This document shows, in pieces, positions 12,101-38,868 of a stretch of 38,868 bases of DNA. Source of the stretch: Nitrospira sp. (lineage in GTDB: Bacteria; Nitrospirota; Nitrospiria; Nitrospirales; Nitrospiraceae); the NCBI GenBank assembly GCA_016788885.1, contig JAEURX010000022.1:1-38868 (forward strand). Direction: 5' to 3'. The notes below the pieces were generated by a model. That model was not told where the DNA came from. It made no database searches and saw only the letters and a program-made list of their open reading frames with translations. The position numbers and the translations under genes are program-made. How positions within the stretch are numbered: the stretch's first letter is position 1; every line of letters starts with the position of its first letter.

Positions 12101-15100
12101 CGTCGTCGACGCTCAACGTACGGACATCGTCGTTGGTGATCGTGCCGAAGCCGGCCCCATCCAGAATGGTCGCATTCGTCGGTGCGCTCAGCGAGACCTG
12201 GAACTGTTCCGCACCTTCCACCCGATCATCTTGGCGCACCTGCACCGTCACCGTTTTGGTGGTCTCCCCCGGCGCAAACGTCAACGTCGTGGGCGGCACG
12301 GGCGTATAGTCGCCTGACACCGCCGTTGCCCCGTTGTCCGAGGTCGCCACCTGCACCGTCACGGTATCGTTGACTGGCTCGGACAGCGTCACGGTAAAAT
12401 TGAACGCCGTGTTTCCGGCGAGAGACGTGCCTTCTGCCAAGGTGACGTCGTTGATCGCCAACGTTGGGATACTCTCGACGACATTGGTGACTGTGACATT
12501 CACTGCTTGCGTCGCAATACCTCCGGCGCCGTCGCTTACCTGCACCGTCACTTCATAGACATTGTCGTGATTCTCATCCGAGGGCGTCTCGAAGTTCGGC
12601 GCCGTCACGAAGCTCAACGCTCCCCCGCTCGTGAAGACGAACGCCGCAGCATCCGCGCCGCCGGTGACGCTGAAGGTGAGTGGTTGAGCTGGAATATCGG
12701 CATCGGATGCAGTGACCGTCATGATCGACGTCTGGTTTTCCGGTACAGCGACCGCCGAAGCGCTGGTAATAGCCGGAGACTGATTGGCGTCCCCGATGGT
12801 CAAACGCACCGTCTGTTCGATGAACGCGTTCGGAGTTCCGTTGTCTGTTACACGAACCGTGATGTCGTACGCTCCAGGCCCTTGCGCTTCGGTCGGCGTC
12901 CAGCTGAATACGCCGCTGACCGGATCGATACTCGCTCCCGTCGGCACGGTCCCTTGCAGACTGAAGGTGAATTGATTGGCCGGCAGATCTCCATCCGTCG
13001 CCACGGCGGTAAACGTCAGCAAGGTTTGTTCGTCCCCACTCACTGCCACCGGAACGGACAACCCGGGCGCCAGATTGACTTCATTCACAGTCACCGTGAT
13101 CGTCTCACGATCACTCAGCGCAGGCGAACCGTTGTCGGTGGCAACCACGTCGAACGTATAAGTGCCAGGGCCTTGCGCTTCAGTCGGCGCCCAGCTGAAT
13201 ACGCCACTGGACGAGTCTATGCTTGCCCCCACCGGCACGGCTCCCCCGAGACCATTCTCAAGGGAGTACGTAACAATCTGAGCAGGCACGTCCGCATCCG
13301 TCACGCTGGCCTGAAACGTCAGGAGCGAGCCTTCGCTGCCGGTCTTATTACCGATCAGATTGAGTATCGGTGGCTGATTCACTTCCGTGACCGTGATGGT
13401 GATCGCCTCGCTGGTGGTCACCAGGCCGTCGCTGAGGGAGAAGGTCACGTTGTAGCTCGTCGACCCTTGCGTATGGTTTGGCGTCCAGACGAACTCCCGA
13501 GTCGCCGGGTCGAATGCCGCCCCTTGCGGCAGGCCAGCCGCGCTGTAGACCAACGCTTGGGCCGGGACATCGCCATCACTCCCGTTTATCGTGAAGCGTA
13601 ATTCGTTCCCTTCGAGCACGCTCTTATTCCCGATTGGGTCGAGCACTGGCGCAGAATTGACATCCGTGACGGTGATCGCAATGGTTTCGCTAGACGATAC
13701 AAACCCATCCGTGACGGAGAAGGTCACGTGATAGATACCGGGCCCCTGACTTTCGTTTGGCGTCCACGTAAATTCTCGTGTGGCAGTGTTGAAATTGGCT
13801 CCCTGTGGGAGGCCCGAGGCGGTATACACCAGCGCCTGGATCGGAATATCCGCATCGGCAGCATCAACAGTGAACCGGAGTTCAGCGCCTTCGACAACGT
13901 TCCGATCACCGACCGGCGCAAGCAGAGGCGATGCGTTCACCTCGCTGACCGTGATCGTGATCGTTTCGGAAGTGGTCGCCACTCCGTCAGTCACGGAAAA
14001 CGTAACTTGATGGACTCCAGGCCCTTGCCCCTCGGTTGGTGTCCAAGCGAACTCACGAGTAGCAGAATCGAAGGTCGCACCAACCGGCAACCCGGCCGCA
14101 CTGTAGGCGAGCGGCTGCGAGGGTACATCCGTATCCGAAGCCGAGACGGTAAACCGGAGCTCCGTGCCTTCGTTCACCGACCGGTTGCCGATCGGAGCTA
14201 GAACAGGCGCACTATTCCCAACACCGACTCGTGTAATAGTTTGAGTCTGACTCCGCTGATTCCCGGCGGAGTCGGTGGCTCGCACGGTGAACGCATTGGC
14301 CCCGACTGTGAGCGCCACATTGGTGAAGGTGAACTGGCCGCTCGCATTGGCCGTGGTGGTAAGGCCGAGCCCCAGCAATTCGACCGCGGCGTTGGCTTCC
14401 GTCTGCCCGACCAGTGCGACACTGGCGTTGGTCGTCTGTTGGTCACCAATCGGCGCGCTGTCCGAGGCCGAGTCGAGTTCCAACGTGAGGCTGGGGACAA
14501 CCGTGTCCAGCGTGAATGGCACCGTGGTCTGCGTGACATTGCCCCCGGTGTCCGTCGCCCGCAGCGTAAGTGTGTAGGATCCATCGGCAAGCGGTCCGCC
14601 GTTGATCTGTTCCAAGCGAGCGGGGCTCAATGCAAACGACCCGTTCGCTTGACGATCGGCCAGAATGTTGAAGGTCGGCGTCGCGCCGAACCCTGCCGTG
14701 AACGTGGCGATCCCTTGCGGATCGTTCACGCTGCCGGTGATTGCCGGATTATTCGTGAGTCGGTCGCTGTTGGAACTGCCGGTATCCTGCTGCAAGGCGG
14801 CATTCAGGGTTGGTCCACCGAAGTTGCTGAGAAAATGAACATCTCCAGCCGTCGGTTTCAGCGTCAAGCCGTTGAGATACTGGGTTGGGAACCGTCCGGC
14901 GTAGAATCGCGTATCGGCGCTCAATGAGCCACCAATCACGATGCCGCCAATCGCGCTGTTGGTGCCGCCGACAAGTTGATCGTCGCCGTTACCGTACAGG
15001 CCATCGACCGGATTGATCCCCACTCGCACGGCAGTATTCGTCATGGCACCGGTCACGGTGAAGAGGCCGATCGTTCCCGCTCCATAGGTATCGGCATCGG

Positions 15101-16267: not shown

Positions 16268-17107
16268 TTAGCTGAGCGCATTTCTATATAGATACTGAAG
16301 CGCCTGGGGGAGTGGACGTCCCAGCTCTTGACCGAACACCCGAGTGCACTGGTGATACACGGCCGTGGCCTCTGCTCTGCGGCCCGTCACCGAGAGGAGC
16401 GTAATCAGGGGCTCATACAGCGGCGTCGCGTGCGGGTCCAGCTGGAGGCCTCGATTCAACCATTGGATCGCGTGTTCGAATCGTCCACGCCGCTGCTGAT
16501 GATCGCTGAGTCGCGCCACAGCGGTGACAAACCGTGCACGCACACGTTCTCGAGTCGCAGCCGCCCATGGCTTCATCCGTTGCTCAGGCAAAAAGGGACC
16601 GCGATACAGTGCCAACGCCTGCCGAAGTTCCCGCGGCGCTTCCCTCACTCTTACATTGGATCTGCCATGGTCCGATCGAGCGACAGCCTGCTCAAACGCA
16701 CACAGATCCACCCAACAACGTGCGGGATCTAAGGTCACGGTGCCATGCTCGAGGCGTACGACGCCCTCAACCGCGAGATATTTGCGCAGGCGCTTGAGTG
16801 TCTTGGAAAACGTCGCGACGGCTCGATCCCCGTCACTGTCAGGCCACAGTTGATCAATGAGGTATGACACCGGCACAGCCTCCCCTCCTGATGCCACGAT
16901 GGCCTGAAGGAGTTCGATCAGCCGCTGCGGCGTCTTCCGACGCTTGGGGAGAGGCTGCCCTTCAACTCGTATTTCAAATGGTCCGAGTACGTAGAGTTGG
17001 AGCGGCCAAGATTGACGCCGGGGAGGGGGTGCGCTCGTCGCGCTTCCTCGAGCACTCGGTGAATCCATGAGGGACCGCATGATCACTCGATGTCCGCCCT
17101 TCATCAT
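16268..17107 (-). CDS. Orphan SARP-like regulator: winged-helix DNA-binding plus BTAD domain
   Basis: The 279-residue protein is homologous along about residues 34-279 to the C-terminal ~250 residues of the two large regulators upstream. It has an OmpR-like winged helix (LYVLGPFEIRVEGQPLPKRR ... LLQAIVASGGE ... QLWPDSDGD ... LKRLRKYL), then a BTAD helical repeat region (ALYRGPFLPEQ ... RAEATAVYHQC). It lacks the ATPase and TPR body, so it looks like an output module left after duplication and deletion, or an independent SARP-type activator. The start is uncertain: ATG at 17107 has no good Shine-Dalgarno, while AAGGGCGGA lies just ahead of internal GTG/ATG codons at residues 8-10. It precedes the giant gene by 131 bp on the same strand and could regulate it (inference). 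Confidence 0.82.
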   Translation of the reverse strand: MMKGGHRVIMRSLMDSPSARGSATSAPPPRRQSWPLQLYVLGPFEIRVEGQPLPKRRKTPQRLIELLQAIVASGGEAVPVSYLIDQLWPDSDGDRAVATFSKTLKRLRKYLAVEGVVRLEHGTVTLDPARCWVDLCAFEQAVARSDHGRSNVRVREAPRELRQALALYRGPFLPEQRMKPWAAATRERVRARFVTAVARLSDHQQRRGRFEHAIQWLNRGLQLDPHATPLYEPLITLLSVTGRRAEATAVYHQCTRVFGQELGRPLPQALQYLYRNALS

Positions 17108-17364
17108 GCACCGCTGCGGCTACGGTAGAGGCGATTGCCCAAGCATCGTCTCTTCCTTCAAAAGCAGGAACAGTTGCTCCAAGTCTTCTCGTGGGTTCGC
17201 CTGCAGGATCGTCTCGCGTGCTGCGTAGTGATCTGCCGCACAGAGCAGGAGGCCTGCAGCAAGGGCACAAGCTTCAACGACCATGACCAACTGTCTGCTC
17301 GTGCAACTCATACCGCACCTGTGGGCACAACCCGACGCATCCGAGGTCGAGTAAGCCATAGCGG

Positions 17365-17390
17365 CAGGGGACAACGTGGGGGACAAATTC
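17365..17390. repeat. GGGGGACA intergenic repeat, partial copy 2
   Basis: The unit reads CAGGGGACAACGTGGGGGACAAATTC, matching the first half of the copies at 16211 and 17707. The second half (AATAC-AGCAATA) is missing. It lies upstream of the orphan regulator. Confidence 0.55.
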
Positions 17391-17706
17391 GGGATGAGTG
17401 CAAGCGGAGTAAAAGCCCTGCGCCGGAAGCTTAGGACAGCGACTTGGAGAGGGGTATTTGCTCGACTTTCACTGGGAAAGGGTGAAAAAGCGGAGTTTTA
17501 CTTGTCACTGGCATACATTCTGGCACCATTCTGCCGCGTTTGCGATTTCTGGGATCTGAACGAGACCCGAGAGCACAAGAGACAACACGAAGGCGCCGCA
17601 TCCGTTCTTCATATGAAACTCCTCCCCTGTATACATCCAATGATCACCAGGTCAGTTGAGGTGCTGAGGCCTAACCTGCTCAGACGAGGACCGTATACCT
17701 TCTCAG

Positions 17707-17752
17707 CAGGGACCGATTGGGGGACACATTCAGGAAATAAATACTAGCAATA
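17707..17752. repeat. GGGGGACA intergenic repeat, copy 3
   Basis: The unit reads CAGGGACCGATTGGGGGACACATTCA, then AATAAATACTAGCAATA, in the same orientation as 16211-16254. It lies 52 bases beyond the 3' end of the large regulator gene. Confidence 0.65.
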
Positions 17753-17803
17753 GAAAACCGTCGTTCTGGGAAACGAGGCGTGAGAAGAAACGGACGTTAC
17801 GTA

Positions 17804-20800
17804 TTACCGTGGGCGGAGAGTTTGAGCGAGCTTTTGAAGATCTGCGGAGACAGAGCGACCGGCCCAACGTGCCAGCTCCGTTCGGCATCTGTCGTAACAG
17901 GCGGTAGCCTCGGCATGCCGGTTTGCGGAGACAAGAAGCGGAATCAGTTGCTGATAGAGCGGTTCCGCGACTGGGTCGACGTCAATGGCTCCGGCCAACT
18001 CGGCCATGAGTTCCTTACATTGCATTCCATCCACGACTTTTTCTCGATGAGTGAAGAGTCGTGTGAACTGCCTACGAATTCGCTCTCGATAAGAGTCGGC
18101 CCATGGTGCGATCTCGTTCCACCCTAGGAACGGGCCTCGATACAGCGCGATGATATTGTCCCGATGGCCGTCCTGGAGGACTGTTCCTGTAGTTCGCTTC
18201 GATTCACCCTCTCCCAAGGAGGCTTCGAACGCCCAGGCATCCACCCAACAGCACGTGCGGTTCAGTGAAATCTCGCCATCCTGCCAACAGAGAGCATCGT
18301 CAACCGCCAGCAACTGACGCAAGCGTGCGATTGATTTCTTAAGATTCTCCCGTGCTTGATCCCCGTCCGCCTCCGGCCACAGCATGTCCATGAGTCTCGC
18401 GGCAGAAACCGGGGCACCGCCATACGTCATGATTGCGATGAGTAACTCCATCAGCCGATGCGGAGTCTTACGGTTTTTCCCGAGCGGTTGCCCATTGATC
18501 AAGACTTCAAATCGGCCCAACGTATAGATCTTGATCGGCCAAGGCCAGGTCTCGAGACAACGAGCCTCCAACGGTGCAGCAAAGCGGTGTTTTTGAATCA
18601 TGCGTAACACAAAGGGAACGTGAATTCCGGCGATGAGCGCTCGGGCACAGAGTCCTGCCATAAGACGTCGGTCGCAACTGGGGTATTGCATCAATCCACG
18701 TACTTCTCCAATCGTCAATGCTTTCTTGAGCGCAACGAGGCCCGCCGGCGCATCATTCCGATCAAAAGCCATTTTCGCCGTCAGGACCCACGCTCCGAAC
18801 CGAAGAAGATCGCTCCGCATTCGATCGCCGATCTCCAAGGACTGTTCGACGTAGCGGGCAGCGCCGTCCAATTGTCCAAGTTCATGCAACGCATGGGCGA
18901 TCACCAGCGCATTGATGCCCTGGCCGAACATGTGTCCGCCTGCAGCTGCGATCAAATCATTTGAACGTAGCCCCTCCTCTAATGCCTTTTGATGATCACC
19001 TCGCAAGCGCAGGAACCATGCAAAGAGGTGCAGGTAGTGCGCTCGATGAATGCCACCAAGCCGCTGGGTCATTGCATCTTCTTCCTTCAAGAGTGCTTCA
19101 GCCGCAGACAGGTTTCCCGCTAATAATTCTCCAGCCACCCCCTGGCTAATGATCAGACCATCCCACACATGGAGCCCCGATTGAGTGACCAGTTCCCTTG
19201 CCTTTCCGATATGCAGGCGGCAGAGATCAAGTTCGCTGTCGAACCAGGCCAAGGTGGCGGTCGTCGCGTGGAAAAATATGGCAGTGATCAGATTCCACTG
19301 TTTAGACTCGCGTAAGCGGGAAAATTGCTCCAGACCTGCCCTGGCGGCGGCGATATCCCCAAACCATAAAAAGTAGATCTCCGTCATGTATCGAGAACCG
19401 GTTTGCACGGCCGGTGGGAGATGCTCGCTGAGGCTGACGGCCCGATCCAGCCATGCCCTCGCATCGTCCCTGTCCGGACGGGTCTGCATGATCGCACCAG
19501 CCAGACAGTCTGCGACATGGGCCTCGACCTCGATCGAGGGGTAAGAAGCACCGTCTGGATGGATGGTTGGAAACAACTCCAAGAGTTTCGTGATCCGCCC
19601 AAGACCGTCCCATCGTATGAGGACTGCCCGGATCGCGCCGCACCAGGACAATAACGCGCCCGTTCGATCGCCCTGCCGCAGGAACTCGTCCAAGCTTTGA
19701 TCGAACAGGGCGTAGGCTTGATCGGGGTCGAAGGACACCTTCGTGCTCGCCAACCAAAACATGAGCCAGGGACTTTGTGCGCGAACTGGCTCGGGAATAC
19801 ATAAAATCCAGGCTTCCAGCGTTTGAATACGTCCGGTCGCCACCAGTTCCTGGGCTTGGCCGAGAATCACCTGTACAAGGCCTTCCCAATCCTCAGCAGC
19901 CTGGAGCACAAGCACAGCCTCTTCGATGCGACCCTCTTTGATGAGGAGGTCCGCCGCGTTTCGCTGGAGCGCTTGGATTTGGGCCGTGCCCAAGTCCACT
20001 CGTGCCCGGTGGAGAAGAAAGTCTCGAAACAGCGGATGGTATCGATACGATGGCTCAGTCCCCTGCCGACGCTCGGTAAAGTAGCGGGAGCGGTGCAGGA
20101 ATGCGAGTAGGTCACCAGCATTTGAGAGGCCGGTGAGCCCCTCCGCCGATCGGATGTTGATATCGGACAGCACGGACGTCTTCAGCAAGAGTTGCCGGAC
20201 ATCCGGGGAAAGCCGTTCCATCACCTCTCCGGCTAAGTAGCGAAAGATCGTCTCGGACGTGCCGTCGAGTCCACTCCCCGACACCGTGCGATCGCCTTTC
20301 GCCTGTTCGACCATCAGCATTAAGCCGGCGGCCCACCCTCCTACTCGTCGGTAGGCCTCATCGACAAAGGTTCGCATGGCGCCGTCCGCCTTTTTCTTCC
20401 AATGCAGCTGGACGATGGCTTTGGCCTCCACTCTCGACAGCGTCAGCGAATCGGCACCGATCACAGTCATTCCCCTGTCGCATTGCACCATAACCAACGG
20501 CGGTGGCGGATCGTGGCGGCTCATGACAAGAACGGATACATGTTCCGGCAGCTCCTGAATTGCGTAGGGAAGCAATTGGTGCAGAGCAGATGTCGAGGGC
20601 ACTTCCTGATAATTGTCCAGCACCAGTACGCAGCGACGCGGCAACCGCGCACACAACTCTTGGAAAAATCGCCGCGTAAAGGTCGGTAACCCAAGCGCAT
20701 ACTCGGGCGTCAGAACCGGAAGGGGCCGTCGGATTCTCGGGACCAGCGACTTAGCCGCCAGGCTCAGATAGTGAAAGAAGGTGGCCGGATCCGCATCTCC

Positions 20801-21010
20801 CTCGTCGAGGCGATACCAACACACCGGCCGGCGTCGTGCCTTCAGGTAACTCGCAACGAGTGTGGTCTTGCCGAATCCGGCCGGTGCGGCGATCCAGGTC
20901 AGGGGGCGGGTTCGTGCACGATCGAGAACCCGAAAGAGCCTCGCTCGGGTGAGCACCACCGGCAAGGTTGGAGGCGTGAGTTTGGCTAACCTCGACTTTG
21001 GTTGCGTCAT
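17804..21010 (-). CDS. MalT-like STAND ATPase/TPR regulator with C-terminal winged-helix/BTAD output
   Basis: I choose the ATG at 21010 (1068 residues) over an in-frame ATG 31 codons earlier. It forms an ATGA overlap with the upstream stop, has GAGGG upstream, and begins MTQPKSRLAKLTPPTLPVVL like its paralogue. The N-terminal ATPase has a Walker A motif APAGFGKTT (42-50) and a Walker B motif VLVLDNY. A long helical TPR-like body follows, and the last ~250 residues hold a winged helix (IYTLGRFEVLINGQPLGKNR, MLWPEADGDQ, KKSIARLRQLL) and BTAD (ALYRGPFLGWNE). In MalT/LAL regulators the ATPase/TPR part senses a ligand and the C-terminus binds DNA; here the usual LuxR helix-turn-helix is replaced. 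It is translationally coupled to the gene at 24246-21007. Ligand and target genes are unknown. Confidence 0.88.
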   Translation of the reverse strand: MTQPKSRLAKLTPPTLPVVLTRARLFRVLDRARTRPLTWIAAPAGFGKTTLVASYLKARRRPVCWYRLDEGDADPATFFHYLSLAAKSLVPRIRRPLPVLTPEYALGLPTFTRRFFQELCARLPRRCVLVLDNYQEVPSTSALHQLLPYAIQELPEHVSVLVMSRHDPPPPLVMVQCDRGMTVIGADSLTLSRVEAKAIVQLHWKKKADGAMRTFVDEAYRRVGGWAAGLMLMVEQAKGDRTVSGSGLDGTSETIFRYLAGEVMERLSPDVRQLLLKTSVLSDINIRSAEGLTGLSNAGDLLAFLHRSRYFTERRQGTEPSYRYHPLFRDFLLHRARVDLGTAQIQALQRNAADLLIKEGRIEEAVLVLQAAEDWEGLVQVILGQAQELVATGRIQTLEAWILCIPEPVRAQSPWLMFWLASTKVSFDPDQAYALFDQSLDEFLRQGDRTGALLSWCGAIRAVLIRWDGLGRITKLLELFPTIHPDGASYPSIEVEAHVADCLAGAIMQTRPDRDDARAWLDRAVSLSEHLPPAVQTGSRYMTEIYFLWFGDIAAARAGLEQFSRLRESKQWNLITAIFFHATTATLAWFDSELDLCRLHIGKARELVTQSGLHVWDGLIISQGVAGELLAGNLSAAEALLKEEDAMTQRLGGIHRAHYLHLFAWFLRLRGDHQKALEEGLRSNDLIAAAGGHMFGQGINALVIAHALHELGQLDGAARYVEQSLEIGDRMRSDLLRFGAWVLTAKMAFDRNDAPAGLVALKKALTIGEVRGLMQYPSCDRRLMAGLCARALIAGIHVPFVLRMIQKHRFAAPLEARCLETWPWPIKIYTLGRFEVLINGQPLGKNRKTPHRLMELLIAIMTYGGAPVSAARLMDMLWPEADGDQARENLKKSIARLRQLLAVDDALCWQDGEISLNRTCCWVDAWAFEASLGEGESKRTTGTVLQDGHRDNIIALYRGPFLGWNEIAPWADSYRERIRRQFTRLFTHREKVVDGMQCKELMAELAGAIDVDPVAEPLYQQLIPLLVSANRHAEATACYDRCRTELARWAGRSVSADLQKLAQTLRPR

Positions 21011-24000
21011 GCACGTCCCTCTGCACGAGTCATCGCTATCACGAGTTGATACGTCGCTGCCGAAGGGGTGCGATTGCCCCATCGAGCCAGCGCAGCACGA
21101 CATCGATCGTATTGAGCCACTGCCTCCGACCGTCGGCCCTGGGCCAAAAGGAGAGGGATAAGCCGCTGATAGAGCGGTTCCGACACAGGATCGACGTCGA
21201 TCGCCGCTTCCAATTCACGCACCATGTCCTGCGCCCCACTCACTGGCTCTGATTGGTCACTGCGACGCGCGAGCAGCCGTGTCCATCGACGGCGAAGTTC
21301 GGCCTGATAGGGCTGGGCCCATTCTGGAATAGCCTCCAGTCCAAGGAAGGGCCCACGGTAGAGCGCAAGGGCGGACTTGTCGATGTCACCTGTATCCTGC
21401 CTTCTCGTGTTCGCAACCCGAGCGTCTGCCTGTTTCACTAACGCCTCAAATGCCAGGGCATCGACCCAGCAGAGGTCCCGGTTCAACGTGATTTTTCCGT
21501 CTTGCCAGAGAATTGCGTTCTCGATGCCAATCATCTTTCTTAAGCGCGCCAGCGACTTCTTGAAGTTTTCCTGCGCTTGATCACCGTCGGCTTCGGGCCA
21601 CAGGGCGTCGGTCAAGCGGGCGACCGGCACGGCCTCTCCCCCGAACGCCACGATAGCGGCAAGCAACTCCAACAGCCGATGGGGCACTTTTCTCTGCCTG
21701 TCGAGGGGGCGCCCGCATACCATCACGTCACACGGGCCCAGCATGGAGATCTTGAGCGGCCACGGCCAATTCGAGGGCCGCAACTCCGGTGCAAGCGGAA
21801 GCCACAGTCGTTGGATAAGCCCCTGGACGAACGACACCTCGATGCCTTCTTCCAGTGCCATGCCGCAGAGGCGCGCAATGACCGGGGCTTCCCACCCCAC
21901 GTAGCCGCCTAATCCGCAGGTGCGACCGATGACCAAGGCAGCCCGAAGCGCCTGCAGACACTGCCGGCGATCGCCTGACTCGAGAGCACATTGCGCCGTC
22001 AACCACAAGCAGCCATACCGGAGGAACTGACTGTTCATGGCTTCGCCGATCACCTCGGCACGCACCCGGTAGGCCTCCGCTTCCTGTCGCTGGCCAAAGG
22101 ACTGACAGATCGACGCCATCAGCAGACAGCACAATGCTTCGGGAAACGGACCGGCTTCCTGTTCTGCGAGGGATAGTGCCTTCGCGCCTGACTCCATCAC
22201 TGTGGCACAATCGCCGTCCAACAGCGTGGACCATGCCGAGAGGTAGCAGAGTTGGCAGCGGTAGAGCCCTCCCACTCGCTCCCACATCGGCCGAATCTCT
22301 GCGAGCCACCGCTGCGCTGAGTTGAGATCACCGGCAAACAAACTGTTGTGAATATCTTGTGCAACCAACCACCCATCCCAGAGATGGATGCCTTCCCGCT
22401 CCGCAAGTGCGAGGCCTTCTCGCACCGCACGTCGACAGTCATCAGCGCGAGCTTCGATCGAGGCCAACAGTGCTTCCGACAGACAATACAGAATCTTCAA
22501 CGATGGAGCCGCACCCGGAGTCGAAGCTCTCTCCAAGAGTCGTACCTGGCCATTGCGCGCCTCCGCCAAATTGCCCATCCACACCAGATACGACTCCGTC
22601 AAAAAGATGGCGTGGCCGGCACCCGATCCCGTAAGCCGATCGGTAAGGGCAATGGCCTTGTCCAGCCACTTTTTCGTCTCGGGGTTGCCCGGCTGCCGCC
22701 ACACGAGTGCGCTCGCCATAGCCTCAGCGACCTGGGCCTCGATCTCAGCGCTAGGATACGGAGTGCCTTCGGAATGAAGCGCACGAAACCTCACGATCCA
22801 CGCATCCAATCGTGGCAGCCCTCTCCACTGAAAAAGGATACAGCGCACAACATTCGCCCACGTCAGCAGGGCCCCCGCCTGATCGTTTTGCGCAACAAAT
22901 TGCGCGAACACCTGTTCGAACATGATGTGCGCATCATGAGGATTCTTAAACAATCGCGAACAGGCATGCCAGAAACGTAACCAGGGGGTGCCCGCAAGTA
23001 CGTGTTGGGGAATCGCGGCTATCCAGTCATCGACTGTTGCGAGTCGGCCCTGTCCCAGCACAGCGGGGGCCAAGGCGATGATCTGGTCGGCCATGGCGGT
23101 CCAGTCCTCTGCCTGCCGCAACTGCGCGATACTCTCTTCATAGTGACCGATTTCCGCCAATCGGGTCGCGGCCTGCCGTCGAAGGGCCCGAACCTCGTCC
23201 ACTGAATATCTTGTCGCGAGCTGCTCGAGCAGGAAGGCTCGAAACAGCGGGTGGTACCGATACCACGGCTCTGGCTCGTCCCGCCTTTCGATGAAGTGGC
23301 GAGCCAGGTAGAGAGACCGGAGCACCTCTCCCGCCTTCGGCGAATTGGTCAATCCCACTGCCAGCGTGACACTGACATCGGGCAGGATGGAGGTTTTGAG
23401 CAAGACCTCCTGAACCTCTCGGACCAGGCCCTCAAACGCATGCGTTGCCAGGAACTGGAAGATACTTTCAGGCGATTCCTGGGTGGATGCAGATTCGATC
23501 GTCTCCTGATGTTTGATGTGATCCAGCAGGAGCGTCACCCCGGCGGCCCATCCCCCGGCCTTCCTATGGAGTTCATCAATACGACTTCGCGCCACACGCT
23601 CTTTTCGAGATGTGAGATGAAGCCGCGCCACTCCAACGGTTTCAAGCCTAGAGAATCGCAGGGGATCCGGACCGATCGTGTCCATCAGTTGCTCAGCCAT
23701 CAGACGAGCCATTGGAGCGCAGGGGCCCTGCCTGCTCATAACCACGACCGAGACGCCGTCGGGAAGTTCATACACCCCGCAGGCCAACAGCTGATGGAGC
23801 GCCGCATCGGCCGGAACTTCATGGTAGTTATCCAGCACAATTCTGCAACGCCGTGGCAGACGCGCGCCAAGCTCCTGAAAATAGCGCCGGGCAAACGTCT
23901 GAAGGCCCAACACATACTCCGGAGTGAGCGTCGGCAAGGGTCGTTTGAATCGAGGAGCAAGACTCTTTGCAGCGAGACTGAGGAAATGAAAGAACGACGA

Positions 24001-24246
24001 AGGATCGGCATCACTTTCATCCAGCCGATACCACAAGACCGGGACGCGCTTCGATTTCAGATAACTGGCAACGAGGGTGGTCTTCCCGGCGCCGGCCGGA
24101 GCCGTGATCCAAATCAGTCGACGCGCGTTCGATTTATCGAGCAGGCGGAACAGCCGCGTCCGTTGAAGCACGATCGGAAGAGTGGGCGGGACCAGCTTGG
24201 CATACGGAACAGAACGGACACGCGATGGCTTGGAGCGGGTCACCAT
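21007..24246 (-). CDS. MalT-like STAND ATPase/TPR regulator with C-terminal winged-helix/BTAD output, paralogue
   Basis: A 1079-residue cytoplasmic regulator and the first gene of a coupled pair. The ATG at 24246 follows TAGGGGGA with about 6-base spacing. It has Walker A TAPAGAGKTT (48-57), Walker B RIVLDNYHEVP (about 135-145), a STAND-like helical body with TPR-type helices, and from about residue 826 the winged helix (ISMLGPCDVMVCGRPLDRQR; DALWPEADGDQ; KKSLARLRKM) followed by BTAD (ALYRGPFLGLE; RRSEAVAQYDRC). It is collinear with the downstream 1068-residue protein along its whole length, so the pair arose by tandem duplication. It may form hetero-oligomers with its partner (inference). 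It is divergent from the FadL-type gene at 24378. Confidence 0.88.
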   Translation of the reverse strand: MVTRSKPSRVRSVPYAKLVPPTLPIVLQRTRLFRLLDKSNARRLIWITAPAGAGKTTLVASYLKSKRVPVLWYRLDESDADPSSFFHFLSLAAKSLAPRFKRPLPTLTPEYVLGLQTFARRYFQELGARLPRRCRIVLDNYHEVPADAALHQLLACGVYELPDGVSVVVMSRQGPCAPMARLMAEQLMDTIGPDPLRFSRLETVGVARLHLTSRKERVARSRIDELHRKAGGWAAGVTLLLDHIKHQETIESASTQESPESIFQFLATHAFEGLVREVQEVLLKTSILPDVSVTLAVGLTNSPKAGEVLRSLYLARHFIERRDEPEPWYRYHPLFRAFLLEQLATRYSVDEVRALRRQAATRLAEIGHYEESIAQLRQAEDWTAMADQIIALAPAVLGQGRLATVDDWIAAIPQHVLAGTPWLRFWHACSRLFKNPHDAHIMFEQVFAQFVAQNDQAGALLTWANVVRCILFQWRGLPRLDAWIVRFRALHSEGTPYPSAEIEAQVAEAMASALVWRQPGNPETKKWLDKAIALTDRLTGSGAGHAIFLTESYLVWMGNLAEARNGQVRLLERASTPGAAPSLKILYCLSEALLASIEARADDCRRAVREGLALAEREGIHLWDGWLVAQDIHNSLFAGDLNSAQRWLAEIRPMWERVGGLYRCQLCYLSAWSTLLDGDCATVMESGAKALSLAEQEAGPFPEALCCLLMASICQSFGQRQEAEAYRVRAEVIGEAMNSQFLRYGCLWLTAQCALESGDRRQCLQALRAALVIGRTCGLGGYVGWEAPVIARLCGMALEEGIEVSFVQGLIQRLWLPLAPELRPSNWPWPLKISMLGPCDVMVCGRPLDRQRKVPHRLLELLAAIVAFGGEAVPVARLTDALWPEADGDQAQENFKKSLARLRKMIGIENAILWQDGKITLNRDLCWVDALAFEALVKQADARVANTRRQDTGDIDKSALALYRGPFLGLEAIPEWAQPYQAELRRRWTRLLARRSDQSEPVSGAQDMVRELEAAIDVDPVSEPLYQRLIPLLLAQGRRSEAVAQYDRCRAALARWGNRTPSAATYQLVIAMTRAEGRA

Positions 24247-31251: not shown

Positions 31252-31833
31252 GGTCAGCGTGCCGATCGCCCCATCGCGGGTATCCTGATTATAGAAGAGT
31301 AATGTCGCACCATCAGCGACAATATGTGTCCAGTGGTCGAAACTACCTGACTTATAGGATGTGTTGGTCTTAAAGCCTGTCGGCGTCAGCGTCCCAATTG
31401 CGCTGGCGCCGTGATCTCGGTTGTAGAAGAGTATTGTTGACCCGTGAATCACGACGTGCGTCCATGTCCCAAAACTACCTGGTTGAAATGAGGTATTGGT
31501 GGTGAGTCCCGTTGGAGTTACTGTTGCAATCGCAGCGCTACCGTCAAGGCGATTGTAAAACAGCATTGTCGTACCGTCTGCGACGATATGAGTCCATTCC
31601 CCCAAACTTCCGTTTGGCAGAGATCCGGTGGTAGTGAACGTTGCCGTGTCAAATGAACCGATCGCGGCAGCGCCCGTCATTTGATTGTAGAAGAAACAAC
31701 CTGCGCCGGTATTGAGAACGTGCGTCCAAGTCCCAAAACTTCCCTACCCAAATTCCTTGGTGGTTGTGAGGCTGCTCGGCGTAAGTTTGCCGATAGCGGC
31801 AGCCCCATTGGTGCGATCGTAAAACAGCAGCAT
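31249..31833 (-). pseudogene. WTH/LFYN tandem-repeat protein, interrupted by an amber codon and truncated by the IS end
   Basis: An ATG at 31833 follows GGAAGGAGGG with nine-base spacing, a very good start. The frame reads MLLFYDRTNGAAAIGKLT and meets TAG at 31744-31746. Beyond it the same frame continues with ~44-residue repeats: WTHVLNTGAGCFFYN, WTHIVADGTTMLFYN, WTHVVIHGSTILFYN, WTHIVADGATLLFYN, each followed by a GA-AIGTLTPTG-type strand. The TAG aligns with a variable position before GSF, so it is a nonsense mutation or a read-through codon. The final stop TGA at 31251-31249 is the terminal TGA of the IS, so the original C-terminus is gone. The repeats suggest a beta-propeller-like fold (inference); no known family is recognised. 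It starts 33 bp after the TIR gene and probably shares its transcript. Confidence 0.7.
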
Positions 31834-31866: not shown

Positions 31867-33429
31867 TTAGGAATGATTTGCTTTGAGGTTGATCGAAGTA
31901 CTCCGCCATGTGTCACCGTCTTTCACTCGGAGCAGAGCCTGAGTCACGGACTTTGGTACGATAAACACGATTTCAGTGTCGGCATAAGTATGCGCAGGAA
32001 TAGATTTGTTTGCCCCTCTTGCCGGTTCGTGAGGAAGATCATCAAAAACTAGGCGAAAATAATTCTGACCATAGTATGTAAATCCGCTTTTGTCGGTAGT
32101 CACCCTCAGTGAAATCCGCAGAAGGAAGGATTCCAGATTGTAAGGCTCTAATGAAAGCGCCCGAAAATCATAGTTAGCCGAACCTTTATCGACGCCAATA
32201 ATACGTGCTGGTCTGGCTAACGACCTAGGGATACTCGATGACCGCACATCAGACCGTGAGACTCCATACTTGAGGTCGATGGGGATAGTCGTTTGTTCGT
32301 TATCGTAGGTAATGCGAAAGCCTACTCGGCGAGCCGTCTTGGGAACAACAAAACTTACCTCCCCAGACTGTTCGCTGTCACTCGCTATCCTCTCAGCAAC
32401 GGACGAGGTTTTCGTCGGGGCATGACGACTATCATCAATCTGAAGTCGAAAGTGACTTTCATAATAAATGTTTACGTCCGAACCGCTGTTTCTTGTCAAG
32501 ATGGAAGTGCTGAGAAGCCAGTTCCCATTGAACTGGTCTTCCAATCGGATTGAGGTGAGGCGAAATACCAAATCGCCTGCCATAAACTTCACTTCAGCAC
32601 CAGCAGGCAGCGAGCGAACCTTTCCGTCTTCTATCCGAACGGATGCAGCAATCTTCTCGGATTCCGGTTTGTCGGCGATGGGAATCGGTTGCGCGGGTGG
32701 AGATTCTCCGGTGGTCGCTGCCGAAATCTGGGAAGCAGGCTCCGTTGGGTTAAGTTGAGCAACCGGCTCAGGAGATGGAAGCGAGGGGGTGTTCCTTTCC
32801 GTAACGATTCCACTGCCATTCGTCTGTGCGATGCCGGTTCCTTGAGTACTCCAACGCGCAACGGGAGAGATCAATGCAACCGCCAGCCCAATGCCAACGA
32901 TGCCTAATGCTACCAACGCTCCTCGATGTGCCAGGAGAGTTTGCTTGACATTGCGTTTGGGCTTGCCTCCTCCGAGCACTTTTTCAAGTACCAGCTCGAG
33001 CTGACTGGAATCATACTCCCAACGTTTATCAGTGAGCTCGTGGGTTTGGTACTGGAATAATTTTTTCAGTTCGTCCGGTAGAGTGTCTACCTTGGGAAGA
33101 TCGGCGCCTCCTACGAGAACGGGAATCACAGGAATGCTCCGGTTGAGAGCGGCCGTCAATTCCGTTCGGACCCAATCATTGGGGTCTTCCAGACGTCGCT
33201 GTCCTTCAGGACTTGTAGCGATAGGCCAATTCGGGCCGATCATGGCCAGCAGGACATCGCATGATCCGACAGCCGAACGCAGGGCTTTCGCAAAATCGGT
33301 GCCTGGTTGGATTGTATCGATATCCATAAAGATCGAGGCAGTTCCAAACTTTTGCTTGAGTCGCTCCGATAGGCGGCCCGTCCAGCCCGCGCTGTCTTCA
33401 CGACGGTAACTGATAAAGATGCCGGCCAT
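31867..33429 (-). CDS. TIR-domain membrane protein with two C-terminal beta-sandwich-like repeats
   Basis: 520 residues; ATG at 33429 with GGAGG six bases upstream. Residues 3 to about 130 are a bacterial TIR domain: IFISYRREDSAGWTGRLSERL, FMDIDTIQPGTDFAKAL, CDVLLAMIGPNW, and WVRTEL with Glu90 at the position of the NADase glutamate. A single transmembrane segment follows (about 168-190, ALVALGIVGIGLAVALI), then a Pro/Ser/Glu-rich linker, then two related modules of about 105 residues (LTSIRLEDQFNGNWLL ... FVVPKTARRVGFRI and ALSLEPYNLESFLLR ... FIVPKSVTQALLRV) resembling DUF4352/telokin-like immunoglobulin folds. Expected topology is cytoplasmic TIR and periplasmic modules. TIR enzymes cleave NAD or make signalling nucleotides in defence; whether this one does is untested. 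Confidence 0.82.
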   Translation of the reverse strand: MAGIFISYRREDSAGWTGRLSERLKQKFGTASIFMDIDTIQPGTDFAKALRSAVGSCDVLLAMIGPNWPIATSPEGQRRLEDPNDWVRTELTAALNRSIPVIPVLVGGADLPKVDTLPDELKKLFQYQTHELTDKRWEYDSSQLELVLEKVLGGGKPKRNVKQTLLAHRGALVALGIVGIGLAVALISPVARWSTQGTGIAQTNGSGIVTERNTPSLPSPEPVAQLNPTEPASQISAATTGESPPAQPIPIADKPESEKIAASVRIEDGKVRSLPAGAEVKFMAGDLVFRLTSIRLEDQFNGNWLLSTSILTRNSGSDVNIYYESHFRLQIDDSRHAPTKTSSVAERIASDSEQSGEVSFVVPKTARRVGFRITYDNEQTTIPIDLKYGVSRSDVRSSSIPRSLARPARIIGVDKGSANYDFRALSLEPYNLESFLLRISLRVTTDKSGFTYYGQNYFRLVFDDLPHEPARGANKSIPAHTYADTEIVFIVPKSVTQALLRVKDGDTWRSTSINLKANHS

Positions 33430-33609: not shown

Positions 33610-33652
33610 TGCTGTATCCGATCCGATTCATTGAATCGGATCGGATACAGCA
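33610..33652. repeat. Perfect 43-bp palindrome (21-bp arms, one-base centre)
   Basis: TGCTGTATCCGATCCGATTCA is followed by a single T at 33631 and then its exact reverse complement ending in AGCA. The arms contain a doubled GATCCGAT/ATCGGATC-type core. There is no T tract for an intrinsic terminator. Candidates are a bidirectional hairpin, a recombination site, a binding site for a dimeric regulator, or a palindromic mobile repeat. It lies 181 bp upstream of the TIR start codon. Confidence 0.9.
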
Positions 33653-34160: not shown

Positions 34161-34252
34161 TTCTCTAACTAGGGCTCCTCCTAGGGTCGGCCCTGGCGCT
34201 TAATGTGGTACTCCACTTCTGTACATCGAAGGGCGAACCCAGGAGGCCTCAT

Positions 34253-34729
34253 ATGATGAAATCCAATTTATTACTACTCAGTGGTCTGTTCGCCACCCTC
34301 ACCGGCTGCATGACGAATGCGACCGTCGAGTTGACGAAGGCGCCGTTCGACGCCACGACCGACCTCACCAACGGCACCTCCGGCGCGACCAGGGAGTTTC
34401 TCGACCCCACGACGGACTTCACGTCGAGTACCACACCGGGCGCATTGTCGGAGAGCGGGCTCCTCCGAGCCAAACGAAAGGCCACCTTCTTCGCGACACA
34501 AACACAGGAGAACCTGCGTACAGATATCGCCCGGGGCCGGGGCGAATATCTGTCATCACTCGCTGTCCTCACGGGAGTGCCCGCACACCAGTGGACGGAC
34601 TTCCAGGCGACGATGACCGGCTCGTATCCCGCACTCTTCGACCAGGCGCTGTCACCGTCGCAATCGACGGAGCGGCTCATTGAGTTGGCGTGGGCGAGCG
34701 GCTACGGCCGGCAACGATCAGCGGACTGA
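34253..34729 (+). CDS. DUF3015-like putative lipoprotein
   Basis: 158 residues from the first of two adjacent ATGs at 34253, six bases after AGGAGG. A frame open further upstream (34205) lacks such a site. The N-terminus MKSNLLLLSGLFATLTGC ends in a good lipobox (LTGC), so export and lipidation are expected. A Thr/Asp-rich low-complexity stretch (DATTDLTNGTSG, DPTTDFTSSTTPG) precedes a helical domain with LRTDIARGRGEYLSSLAVLTGVP, YPALFDQ and ELAWASGYG, features I associate with DUF3015. Function is unknown. It is followed by a hairpin and then the PLD gene on the same strand. Confidence 0.75.
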   Translation: MMKSNLLLLSGLFATLTGCMTNATVELTKAPFDATTDLTNGTSGATREFLDPTTDFTSSTTPGALSESGLLRAKRKATFFATQTQENLRTDIARGRGEYLSSLAVLTGVPAHQWTDFQATMTGSYPALFDQALSPSQSTERLIELAWASGYGRQRSAD

Positions 34730-34921: not shown

Positions 34922-37177
34922 ATGGCCAACATCAGCATCCACGGACGCCTCATCGATGAGCGGGGAGCCGGCATCGCCGGCTTGACCGTTCGTGCGCTCG
35001 ACTTCGATCCTTTTTTTAGCGAAGACGATGTGCTGGGGGTCGGCAAGACAGAAGGCGACGGCACCTTTCTCATTGCCTACTCGCCGGACGCCTACCGTAC
35101 CTGGAAGGTTGATCGAAATCCCGACCTCGTCGCGCAGATATTCGGCCCGCCCAACTCCGACCCGAAACGCTTCGGCACGCGCCTCCTGCACGAAACCCCG
35201 GAAGCGGAAGATGTCACCGACTCGAACCACGAAGTCGGCACCATCACCATCCACCGCAACAACCTCGACGGCTGGCTCGTCACCCACACGACGTTACACC
35301 CCGCCTCCGGAGACCCAGTCGCGCTCTTTCACCATAACCGCGTCACACCGCTGATCGACGGGGCCACGATGTTTCCCGCAGTGACCGACGCCGCCGCCTC
35401 GGCCACCGAATCCATCAACCTCATGACGCTCTTCTTCGACGTCAACAACGGCTTCCTCACCAAATTCAAACCCAGCTTCGACCCGTTGAATCCCCCGTCC
35501 AACGGTTGCAAACAGGCGGCCGAGACCACGTTGGAGGACATCCTGAAACACAAAGGCGGCAAGCCGGTCAACATTCTCGTCACGAACCTGCCGCTCTCGG
35601 CAGAAGATACCGTGACCGAAGTGGCGGAGTTCTTCGCACAGACCGCGGGGGTGCACACCAACGCCTACAACAAGGGATTCGCGCTGCTGCATGCCAAGGC
35701 CATCGTGGTGGACGGGCGCCGCGCCATCCTCATGGGGTCGCCGTTGAAACAGTATTACTTCAGCGACACCAGCCATGCCATCCGTGACGCGCGCCACAAG
35801 GGCTCGCTCATGCACGACGTGAATCTCGACATCAGCGGGCCGGCGGTCTCCCATATCGAGAAAACGTTCGCAAGCATCTGGAATGCCACCGGCAAGCCCA
35901 TGCTCATTCCTCCGCCGAAAACCTTTCCCGACCTGCCGGTCACGCCCGACGGCGACGTGACCTCGGTGCAAGTCCTGCGCACGCTGCCGGGCGGCTCGAT
36001 CAAACGCATCAACCCCAGCGATGAAGACCTGCCCTACGGTGAAACCGGCATCCTCGAAGCCTATGAGCGTGCCATCGCCAACGCTCAGCGCTACATCTAC
36101 ATCGAGAACCAATACTTCACCTCTCACGAAATCATCGATGCGCTCATCTCGCGGATGAAGGACACCACCAGGCCGCGCTTGGAAATTATCCTGGTCTTGA
36201 ACCTGCTTCCCGACCTGCCCGGCTATCCGGATCGCCAGATCGACAACGTCAACCAACTCCGCAGCGCCGCCGACAGTGGCGGACATCATCTGGGCGTCTA
36301 CACCCTCTGGAGTCGATCGGAACAAGCGGGCAGCGGCGCAGGCAGTCAGCGGCGCTACGACGTGATGCCGGTGTACGTGCACAGCAAAACCGCCATCATC
36401 GACGACGTGTGGGCCACGTCCGGCAGCGCGAACCTCGACGGCACCTCGATGAACTACCACGAGATCGGCCTCATCATCACCGGCTCCCTCCTCGACCGCG
36501 CGATCGAAAAAGCCAACCTCACCAATGATCCGGGGAAATTTCTCTGGGAACTGTTTTGGTATATCTTTTTCTTCGTCTTCAAACAGATCCTGTTCGACCT
36601 CAAGACGTTGCTCGTCTTGCTCTTCGTCGCCTACAAACTGATCTTCGACTTCAAGGAGACACTGGAGACCATCCGCGAAACGTTGGGCGACGTGGCCGAC
36701 ATTCCCCAACTTATCGCCGACGTCTTTACACGCACGGCCCGGCACGCCCTCCCCGGCCGGTCACGTCAGCCGTCGCGGAGTGTGGAACTCAACCTGGTGA
36801 TGTACAGCGGCATCGCCGGCTTGCCGGAGAACGGCGTGGTCAAGGCCCTGCGTCATCAGTTGTGGCAGGAACACTTAGGACTCAGCTCGCTGCCGGATCA
36901 CCTCAAGACCTTGCCGGCCGATCCCGCCGCCACAACCTGGGTCGCCGACTGGGACGCCGCTGCCGCGCGACATGTGGAAGCCATTCAGAACAACCAGGCT
37001 CCGCCCGCCGACCAGACTCCACACCTGTTGCCCTGGAAGCCGGAGACCGACCCGAAGGACTATCTGACGGCACTCAAGATTCGCACGTCCACCCTGCGTA
37101 ACAAGGCGCAGAAGTTCGATTTCAACACCTGCAAGGTCGACGACAAGAAGGATCTGCTCCCATGGCCGATCATCTAG
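34922..37177 (+). CDS. Phospholipase D-like protein with two HKD motifs and N-terminal transthyretin-like domain
   Basis: 751 residues. Residues 3 to about 60 look like a transthyretin/CarboxypepD-reg beta-sandwich (ISIHGRLIDERGAGIAGLTV ... EGDGTFLIAY). The PLD catalytic core has HKD motif 1 at HAKAIVVDGRRAILMGSP (His257, Lys259, Asp264) and motif 2 at HSKTAIIDDVWATSGSANLDG (His487, Lys489, Asp494); both are complete, so phosphodiesterase or transphosphatidylase activity is plausible. IYIENQYFTS before motif 2 is typical. Residues about 541-575 form an aromatic hydrophobic stretch (FWYIFFFVFKQILF, LLVLLFVAYKLIF) that may sit in or on a membrane. No signal peptide. The ribosome-binding site is weak. 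It overlaps the next gene by 16 nt, so the two are co-translated. Confidence 0.88.
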   Translation: MANISIHGRLIDERGAGIAGLTVRALDFDPFFSEDDVLGVGKTEGDGTFLIAYSPDAYRTWKVDRNPDLVAQIFGPPNSDPKRFGTRLLHETPEAEDVTDSNHEVGTITIHRNNLDGWLVTHTTLHPASGDPVALFHHNRVTPLIDGATMFPAVTDAAASATESINLMTLFFDVNNGFLTKFKPSFDPLNPPSNGCKQAAETTLEDILKHKGGKPVNILVTNLPLSAEDTVTEVAEFFAQTAGVHTNAYNKGFALLHAKAIVVDGRRAILMGSPLKQYYFSDTSHAIRDARHKGSLMHDVNLDISGPAVSHIEKTFASIWNATGKPMLIPPPKTFPDLPVTPDGDVTSVQVLRTLPGGSIKRINPSDEDLPYGETGILEAYERAIANAQRYIYIENQYFTSHEIIDALISRMKDTTRPRLEIILVLNLLPDLPGYPDRQIDNVNQLRSAADSGGHHLGVYTLWSRSEQAGSGAGSQRRYDVMPVYVHSKTAIIDDVWATSGSANLDGTSMNYHEIGLIITGSLLDRAIEKANLTNDPGKFLWELFWYIFFFVFKQILFDLKTLLVLLFVAYKLIFDFKETLETIRETLGDVADIPQLIADVFTRTARHALPGRSRQPSRSVELNLVMYSGIAGLPENGVVKALRHQLWQEHLGLSSLPDHLKTLPADPAATTWVADWDAAAARHVEAIQNNQAPPADQTPHLLPWKPETDPKDYLTALKIRTSTLRNKAQKFDFNTCKVDDKKDLLPWPII

Positions 37178-38868
37178 TCCAGAACGCCACCGCCGGGATC
37201 GGGCGGCTGCTGTCGCACCTCGACCTCATCCAGGGCGATGTGGAGGAAGCGCGCGCATTTCTGAAACTGTTGGGGTGGGACCTGCCGCCCGGCCTGGATG
37301 ACATCGGTCTAGCCGCACTCAATCTCAGCGATTTCCTCACCAAGCTCGACGCAGTCCTCGGCGCATCCGATACCGAATGGAACGACGACCTGGCCATGGC
37401 GGGCCGCATTGCTGACCTCGCGCTCGCGATCGAAGCCCTCACGCAGCAGATTCACCAGTTGGCGCAGACCCTGCCCGCCAGGCTGGCATATTTCGGCGAC
37501 TATGTGGAGCGCACGCAGATCCACAAGGAACTGCCGAGACGCCTCTTCGATTTTCTCGCCGCGAATTTCTTGTCGCAGGCCTCGCCGCTGACCTATGCCT
37601 CCCTGCACCTACTGAACATCATCGACTACCCCTATTACGCCGCTGATCCGACGAGGTTCCAAGTCGAACACGTCCGCGCCACGATCAACTATTACCTCTT
37701 CAAGGTGGCGGTCACACAGCCCGACCAACTCTTTACCGAGGCCTACGGCTGGCACACACCCGACTTCCAGTCGATGACCTTTCTCACCAGGTTGAGCCAG
37801 TTGCTGCAAACGCTGGGGTTACGAAACCGTATCCAACCCATGAGTCCGCAGGCGCAAGAGGCCTGGTTGGGGCGAGTCGAATCGAGTTCCAACCCGCCGC
37901 CGCAACTCATCACCTTCCTGCACGAGGAACGTGGAGCCGCGTTCGGAGTGCGGTTAGGCCTCTCGCTTTTCGGCGCCGCCCCCACGTCGGCGGGCGCGAG
38001 TGATGCCGGACTCGGCCTCGCCCCCATCATTCAAGGCCGCGCGGAAGGCACGATCCCCTTTCCGCGTTTGGAAGACACCCGCATCGAATGGTCCGGCGAC
38101 GTGGCGGTGCTGAAACGGCTGGCAGTGATCCTCAGGCCAGGGCAGGACCTCACCGTGCGCAAGGGAGCCGGGCTCGCCGATGCCCTCAACGGACGCCTCA
38201 CGCTGGGCCTGCGGCACGGCCAACCGGCCGGCGAGTTCAAACCATTGATTCGATTACCCGGCGGCTCAGCCCTACGGTATCAGCAGTTTTCCGTCGCAGG
38301 TGGACTCGATGCCTCCTCGGCCACCCGGATGGAGACGTTCGTCGAGCTTGCGCTGCTGGGACTCCGCTTCGACCTCTCGCTCGCAGAGGCAGACCACTTT
38401 ATCCAAGGCACGGTTGGGCGTGAGTCTGTCCAGGCCCCGTTCGACCTTACCATGCGCTGGAGCAGCAGAGAGGGACTGTCGTTCTCCGGTAGCGGCGGAC
38501 TCCACGTGTCGTTGCCGTTGCAGCAGGCCATCGGCCCCGTGAAGCTGGATGCGGCCCACATCGGTATCGACGTGGGCGAAGCGGGCATCGATACGGAAAC
38601 CAGTGTCAACGCCCGCTTGGTGCTCGGCCCCGTCACCGCAACCGTCGAACGGATCGGTGTCACCGTCGCCCTCTCCTTCCAGGAAGGCAACCTTGGCCCC
38701 TTCGGCCTGACGCCGCGCTTCAAGCCCCCGACCGGCCTCGGTCTGGTGGTGACGACACCGGGGGTCACCGGGGGCGGCTTCCTGGGCTTTGATCCCCAGC
38801 GGGCCGAATACAGCGGGATGTTGCAGTTGGAGCTGGCCGAGACCCTCGCCCTCAAGGCCCTGGGCCTG
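37162..38868 (+). CDS. Large DUF6603-like protein (partial, runs off window)
   Basis: An open frame of 569 codons from the ATG at 37162, with AAGGAT about nine bases upstream and 16 nt inside the end of the PLD gene. The first ~270 residues are helical (IGRLLSHLDLIQGDVEEARAF, DFLTKLDAVLG, YYLFKVAVTQPDQLF). After about residue 270 it becomes beta-rich with repeating Gly-rich strands (GLSFSGSGGLHVSLPL, NARLVLGPVTATVERIGVTV) and the stretch RFKPPTGLGLVVTTPGVTGGGFLGFDP, followed by YSGMLQLEL, which I associate with DUF6603. Members are very long and of unknown function. Tight coupling to a PLD-like gene suggests joint action, perhaps on lipids or at membranes (inference). Confidence 0.75.
   Translation, partial: MADHLVQNATAGIGRLLSHLDLIQGDVEEARAFLKLLGWDLPPGLDDIGLAALNLSDFLTKLDAVLGASDTEWNDDLAMAGRIADLALAIEALTQQIHQLAQTLPARLAYFGDYVERTQIHKELPRRLFDFLAANFLSQASPLTYASLHLLNIIDYPYYAADPTRFQVEHVRATINYYLFKVAVTQPDQLFTEAYGWHTPDFQSMTFLTRLSQLLQTLGLRNRIQPMSPQAQEAWLGRVESSSNPPPQLITFLHEERGAAFGVRLGLSLFGAAPTSAGASDAGLGLAPIIQGRAEGTIPFPRLEDTRIEWSGDVAVLKRLAVILRPGQDLTVRKGAGLADALNGRLTLGLRHGQPAGEFKPLIRLPGGSALRYQQFSVAGGLDASSATRMETFVELALLGLRFDLSLAEADHFIQGTVGRESVQAPFDLTMRWSSREGLSFSGSGGLHVSLPLQQAIGPVKLDAAHIGIDVGEAGIDTETSVNARLVLGPVTATVERIGVTVALSFQEGNLGPFGLTPRFKPPTGLGLVVTTPGVTGGGFLGFDPQRAEYSGMLQLELAETLALKALGL

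Follow-up and report, generated by a model that had tools for sequence, protein, structure and literature searches.

A phospholipase D–DUF6603 gene pair of Nitrospira as a probable interchangeable cassette of a conserved gene cluster in bacteria and haloarchaea

The question raised by the stretch of DNA analysed here (the window), a complete contig of 38,868 nt (G000:C22) from a draft genome with Nitrospira as its relatives within the genus, is to what unit its last two genes belong. These encode a phospholipase D (PLD) family hydrolase and the beginning of a protein with a DUF6603 domain, and the initial annotation of the window had suggested that so tight a pair may form a membrane-acting complex or an effector with its carrier. 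The 16-nt overlap of the two genes that it described is exact, with the ATG of the second at 37162 and the TAG of the first ending at 37177, and recurs in orthologues, for example in the relatives G004 and G023. Its DUF6603-like assignment is borne out by a PF20248 match (E=1e-18) that spans profile positions 1–105 of 502 and scores 67.7 bits against a gathering cut-off of 27. We consider it probable that the pair is one interchangeable cassette of an undescribed system, consisting of one or two hydrolase–DUF6603 modules followed by the genes F1, F2 and F3 described below, in which the N-terminal part of DUF6603 would act as an adaptor and its C-terminal part would couple the enzyme to a common assembly.

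Because the window is an entire contig, its DUF6603 gene is incomplete. The end of another contig of the same genome (C16) carries a DUF6603 C-terminal fragment and then four genes that we named F1 (869 aa), F5 (340 aa, coiled coil), F2 (1772 aa) and F3 (574 aa), of which F1–F3 encode giant proteins without a library family. The operon is found on a single contig in G004, where it reads PLD–DUF6603–S8 protease–DUF6603–F1–F5–F2–F3, and in N. defluvii (G023), where it is the same except for an M64 peptidase in the second slot; in G006 the first slot is occupied by a PhoD-like phosphatase. The window contig stops ~150 nt inside a stretch that is near-identical between both DUF6603 genes in relatives, and DUF6603 lies at contig ends in many draft genomes, so that the break is most simply explained as an assembly break at a repeat. 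Neither an S8 nor an M64 cassette enzyme was found in the window's own genome, and a second cassette is therefore unproven there, being either lost in an assembly gap, different, or absent. Since the tandem DUF6603 genes are near-identical, many draft genomes break at this locus, and this may be one reason why the cluster has been overlooked. Two other arrangements were observed among the relatives. In Nitrospira UBC2 (G008, single contig) the operon is split, with PhoD and a truncated DUF6603 at 1.38 Mb (L028) and F1-F2-F3 ~1 Mb away at 2.37 Mb (L161/L103). In G029 (L041/L057) a second, amidase-type DUF6603 module is followed by a 105-aa F1 remnant, and both DUF6603 copies share an identical 2208-bp stretch.

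The gene order of the cluster is fixed. GTDB species genomes were scanned with F1 alone, which gave 275 relatives, and among the best 80 of these DUF6603 lies directly upstream of F1 in 67 of the 69 loci with room, F2 lies downstream in 70/71 testable loci and F3 in 65/66, the order being hydrolase–DUF6603, once or twice, and then F1–F2–F3. The hosts include members of Nitrospirota, Acidobacteriota, Bacillota, Verrucomicrobiota, Bacteroidota, Actinomycetota, Pseudomonadota, Myxococcota, Planctomycetota, Chloroflexota and haloarchaea, and some copies are plasmid-borne. Of 395 Nitrospirota genomes, 39 have DUF6603 and 35 have F1, and F1 was in no case found in a genome lacking DUF6603. Ten DUF6603 loci were present in 296 Actinomycetota genomes sampled without bias; one of them is cut by a contig end, and the remaining nine (one of which is L107) all fall either into the main cluster or into a related second type, DUF6603–F13–F25–F24, that was also found in G027, G057, G234 and G405. 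By hhalign, F13 is a relative of F1 over the N-terminal third of the latter (probability 93%, E 2.7e-7). The initial annotation had named random neighbours of DUF6603 as the result that would speak against a functional link; the survey came out against randomness, with 9/9 testable Actinomycetota loci in two related clusters. It had also proposed to look for tail-like, secretion or toxin genes in the rest of the operon; the operon continues with F1–F3, and tail, secretion and toxin-immunity genes do not recur nearby. In the flanks (~10 kb) the hydrolases were the sole recurrent family.

Searches of F1, F2 and F3 against Pfam, NCBIfam, PADLOC and PHROGs returned no family, with the exception of FG-GAP and DUF3892 additions in one actinobacterial F1, and most F1–F3 proteins are annotated as hypothetical by NCBI. 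Two of the haloarchaeal copies (L139 and L140) lie on megaplasmids of Halobellus and Salinigranum, and the annotation of the Salinigranum F2 and F3 includes BGTF surface and lamin-tail domains. A phage origin of the cluster was rejected, there being no DUF6603 in 50,697 phage records and no meaningful PHROG match for the core. Among open-licence papers we found none on the PLD/DUF6603 pair and none naming DUF6603 or PF20248, although prior work elsewhere is possible.

The position in front of DUF6603 is usually taken by a hydrolase, which differs between loci. In a partly redundant sample of 82 units, the gene just upstream was PhoD-like in 28, M64 in 11, PLD in 10 and S8/trypsin-like in 10; the others were single cases, among them genes with Amidase_2, serine beta-lactamase-like, DUF2515 and DUF4056 domains, and lipases are also among the partner hydrolases. 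The enzyme and DUF6603 genes often overlap by 4 or 16 nt. Swapping takes place at one site, as tblastn placed PLD, M64, PhoD and other cassettes, including unknown ones, beside the same DUF3015 gene in different Nitrospira, sister species of the window's genome among them. PLD and class 3 lipase precede DUF6603 in loci of the second type as well (among L040, L043, L151, L152, L163, L165 and L171, some have an upstream gene for PLD, for a class 3 lipase or for a protein with weak metallo-beta-lactamase likeness), and in one Polyangium protein an alpha/beta hydrolase and DUF6603 are fused in a single chain. PLD is thus one of many exchangeable partners, and the PLD/DUF6603 pair is not the unit.

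The two parts of DUF6603 differ sharply in their relationships. In the 11 Nitrospira genomes that have two DUF6603 genes each, the N-terminal ~440 residues (N-part) of the tandem proteins within one genome are 21.5–25.1% identical, those of different species with the same enzyme share a median of 82%, and the nearest neighbour of an N-part has the same enzyme class in 21/22 cases. The DNA of the C-terminal part (C-part), on the other hand, has a median identity of 99.1% within a genome versus 83.6% between species, its nearest neighbour is the gene's own paralogue in 22 of 22 cases, and identical runs between paralogues reach up to 1735 bases. The jump in identity is located at the start of the homogenised C-part, and the uniformity is also seen in single-contig genomes and is therefore not an assembly collapse. 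The C-part is thus under concerted evolution, and the N-part is tied to the enzyme. The N-part encoded in the window follows the same pattern, being 77–92% identical to those of the PLD-slot DUF6603s of sister species and 16–26% to those with other enzymes. When loci of different phyla are compared and C-part identity is corrected for, N-parts with the same enzyme are 10.5 points more identical, a value that none of 1000 shuffles reached (0 ± 0.65), these shuffles taking no account of kinship, and the nearest neighbour has the same enzyme in 56/59 cases by N-part and in 41/59 by C-part. This co-variation and the Polyangium fusion lend partial support to the suggestion of an effector with its carrier, with the correction that PLD is one partner among many.

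AlphaFold models the DUF6603 orthologue of N. defluvii (mean predicted local distance difference test (pLDDT) score 81.7, mostly ~90 over residues 480–880) as a helical N-terminus followed by a beta region and then by ~28 antiparallel strands at residues 420–900, in agreement with the initial description of the protein as helical and then beta-rich. Most strands of the beta domain alternate polar and hydrophobic sides in the model, and the domain may close into a barrel, form a groove for lipids or serve as a scaffold. Among solved structures it comes closest to porins, ushers and LptD, with VIA at Z 14 and a root-mean-square deviation (rmsd) of 11 Å over ~270 residues, and ApoB is found weakly. 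The likeness to the outer-membrane usher, LptD and porin barrels and to ApoB lies in the long meander of amphipathic antiparallel strands; the matches have high rmsd and low TM-scores, however, and the likeness is one of arrangement that does not show kinship. Unlike outer-membrane barrels, the listed DUF6603 proteins have no visible signal-like N-terminus and occur in single-membrane organisms, the system being found also in Gram-positives and haloarchaea. No signal peptides were detected in the core proteins by a simple hydropathy scan. Sequence matches of DUF6603 in the PDB were rejected as coiled-coil look-alikes of its helical N-part, and the PDB contained no credible distant sequence relatives of F1, F2 or F3. 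The F1 model (pLDDT 81.4) is composed of immunoglobulin (Ig)-like sandwiches and helices and has no clear match that would speak for or against a tail or baseplate fold; its Ig-like pieces resemble CopC at Z 4–5, below the noise level stated for the tool, and nothing with the F1 fold was found in BFVD.

Taken as a system, the N-terminal ~440 residues of each DUF6603 would bind one particular hydrolase, and the C-terminal amphipathic beta meander, common to all adaptors, would couple each of them to one and the same F1-F2-F3 assembly, which could then carry several enzymes. We infer physical docking and a common assembly from the patterns described above; targeting to the membrane or envelope, and any antagonism, are speculative. 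The assembly might bring envelope-degrading enzymes to a membrane, be it that of the cell itself or that of a different organism. Delivery to a membrane or envelope seems the most likely use, given that lipids, phosphodiesters, proteins or peptidoglycan are the targets of most enzymes that could be recognised and that most of the strands have one hydrophobic side. We tentatively suggest, as a possibility short of a probable one, that the cluster represents a new kind of delivery or targeting machine of bacteria and archaea, in which cognate DUF6603 adaptors load envelope-degrading enzymes onto F1-F2-F3 and the C-part is kept uniform in each genome by gene conversion. Several points weigh against the cassette interpretation. 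Some of the genes upstream of DUF6603 have no recognisable enzyme domain. Binding between enzyme and adaptor is a prediction, and neighbouring genes may be transferred jointly even when their products do not bind each other. The N-part signal has a small absolute size outside Nitrospira (median identity 23.5% vs 20.3%, with shuffles that ignore kinship). The lack of signal peptides and of linked export genes leaves the route to the envelope unexplained, no recurring immunity gene was found near the cluster, and the hydrophobic belt of the window's PLD is shortened or missing in more distant PLDs of the system and is therefore not a core feature.

That PLD stands beside DUF6603 by chance is vanishingly improbable, since it is ruled out by the conservation of gene order and by the unbiased DUF6603 survey; PLD orthologues occupy the same slot in at least 10 Nitrospirota species, and PLD also precedes DUF6603 in a Myxococcota record and in a cluster of the second type. 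The co-variation itself could stem from joint transfer of the adjoining enzyme and N-part without docking, which would give the same pattern because the two are adjacent and which agrees with the position of the identity jump at the start of the homogenised C-part. As the N-part tracks the enzyme class across phyla too, however, and as a fusion of hydrolase and DUF6603 exists, such hitchhiking is in our judgement unlikely.

Two other functions were considered. Exchangeable effector enzymes on a constant core are typical of defence systems, and in a cell-autonomous system of this kind F1–F3 would sense infection and the DUF6603 adaptor would release or activate a destructive hydrolase within the cell. 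The presence of PLD and proteases among the enzymes, the lack of signal peptides, the patchy distribution and a TIR-domain gene nearby in the window would all fit, but PADLOC and PHROG contain no model that recognises DUF6603, F1, F2 or F3, DUF6603 is missing from the phage records, no further gene family recurs in the flanks, and a peptidoglycan amidase and PhoD would be odd as intracellular suicide effectors, which makes a defence role improbable. Nutrient scavenging or envelope remodelling, in which surface-held hydrolases would free phosphate, fatty acids or amino acids or maintain the cell's own envelope, is in keeping with an enzyme set of PhoD, PLD, lipases and proteases, with free-living, environmental hosts, with the lack of an immunity gene and with the FG-GAP, BGTF and lamin tail surface-type domains of some actinobacterial and haloarchaeal core proteins. 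It is nevertheless doubtful, given that the core has no visible signal peptides or anchors and that giant conserved non-enzymatic proteins and strict matching of enzyme and adaptor seem to exceed its needs. The interpretation that we favour is the interchangeable cassette with an enzyme-specific adaptor.

The features of the locus are listed in Table 1. The PLD of the window is 84–91% identical to its sister-species orthologues and contains two HxKx4D motifs in one chain (at residues 257 and 487), as is the rule in the phospholipase D superfamily, so that the two HKD motifs and the hydrophobic belt read from the sequence at the outset are both present. It also carries the IENQYF and LWxEHL motifs, the latter C-terminal, which it shares with classical PLDs, and its matches in the PDB set are plant PLD alpha 1 and human PLD1/2. 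In contrast to these enzymes, it has the hydrophobic belt inserted ahead of the LWxEHL part, and Pfam detects the PLD domains only; the N-terminal region, initially assigned a transthyretin-like domain, is transthyretin-like at most, the corresponding PF13620 match in an orthologue (E=0.097) lying below the cut-off. No sigma-70-like promoter was found upstream of the gene. On contig C58 the same genome encodes another PLD, which is of a different type and has a multi-pass-like hydrophobic region at its C-terminus.

Table 1. Positions of the features of the PLD–DUF6603 locus in the window.
Feature	Position	Strand	Evidence or remark
DUF3015 protein, syntenic anchor	34205..34729	+	PF11220; tblastn
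Phospholipase D family hydrolase, 751 aa	34922..37177	+	PF13091 E=1.1e-14, PF00614 E=2.1e-7; exchangeable enzyme of the cassette
PLD HKD motif 1, HAKAIVVD, residues 257–264	35690..35713	+	kept in all type I PLDs aligned
PLD HKD motif 2, HSKTAIID, residues 487–494	36380..36403	+	PF00614
PLD hydrophobic belt, residues ~540–577	36539..36652	+	hydropathy scan, peak hydropathy 1.87
PLD LWQEHL motif, residues 647–652	36860..36877	+	shared with classical PLDs, in their C-terminal part
DUF6603 protein, first 569 residues, cut at contig end	37162..38868	+	PF20248
DUF6603 N-part, residues 1–440, helical then beta, putative enzyme-specific adaptor	37162..38481	+	identity pattern; AlphaFold
Start of constant DUF6603 beta domain, Pfam positions 1–105	38518..38868	+	PF20248
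Expected start of stretch near-identical between tandem DUF6603 genes	38717..38868	+	homology with G004, gene position 1556

The remainder of the window holds several other features. Two giant surface-type proteins (>1907 and 3315 aa) with He_PIG, Big_9, CARDB, Calx-beta and other Ig-like repeats are encoded at 1-16136 (-), and three consecutive, mutually similar genes (279, 1099 and 1079 aa) at 16268-24246 (-), the first of which has a BTAD transcriptional activator domain and the last two of which overlap by 97 nt. The TIR-domain protein near the PLD–DUF6603 locus (31867-33429, -) has a weak DUF4352-like C-terminal match and a weak match to the PADLOC ThsB model. Three 26-nt repeats with a spacing of exactly 132 nt lie at 31454-31743, and at 33610-33652 there is a perfect inverted repeat of 21 nt whose arms are 1 nt apart.

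The locus thus leads to a four-gene core in fixed order that occurs in about ten phyla and in haloarchaea, and none of the libraries searched has a family for its three largest proteins. The differing evolution of the two parts of DUF6603 turns a domain without known role into a testable adaptor hypothesis and offers a way into the question of how lipases, phosphatases and proteases might be put to use by environmental bacteria and archaea. One cassette uses a DUF4056 protein; DUF4056 is the 'CapCone' domain of the lipocone superfamily, for which an action on lipid head groups is predicted in PMC12419801, a paper without mention of DUF6603. With polymorphic toxin systems the cluster shares module swapping at a fixed locus and envelope-directed enzymes. 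It differs from them in that the enzyme is usually a separate upstream gene and not a C-terminal tip; no recurring adjacent immunity gene was found, although fast-evolving immunity genes could escape flank clustering, and the scanned enzymes and core proteins contained no known trafficking or secretion domain. Effector-adaptor modules are also a feature of type VI secretion systems and extracellular contractile injection systems. Within ~10 kb of the present cluster there is no recurring gene for a sheath, tube, baseplate, spike or ATPase, and by this gene content it is not a member of the injection systems; its core proteins match no known component, nor any PHROGs tail family beyond a chance-level coiled-coil match, and it occurs in archaea and Gram-positives. 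What it would have in common with these machines is the organisation of its parts, namely an exchangeable lytic enzyme, a cognate adaptor encoded next to it that has one variable and one constant part, and a common machine on which the different adaptors would converge.

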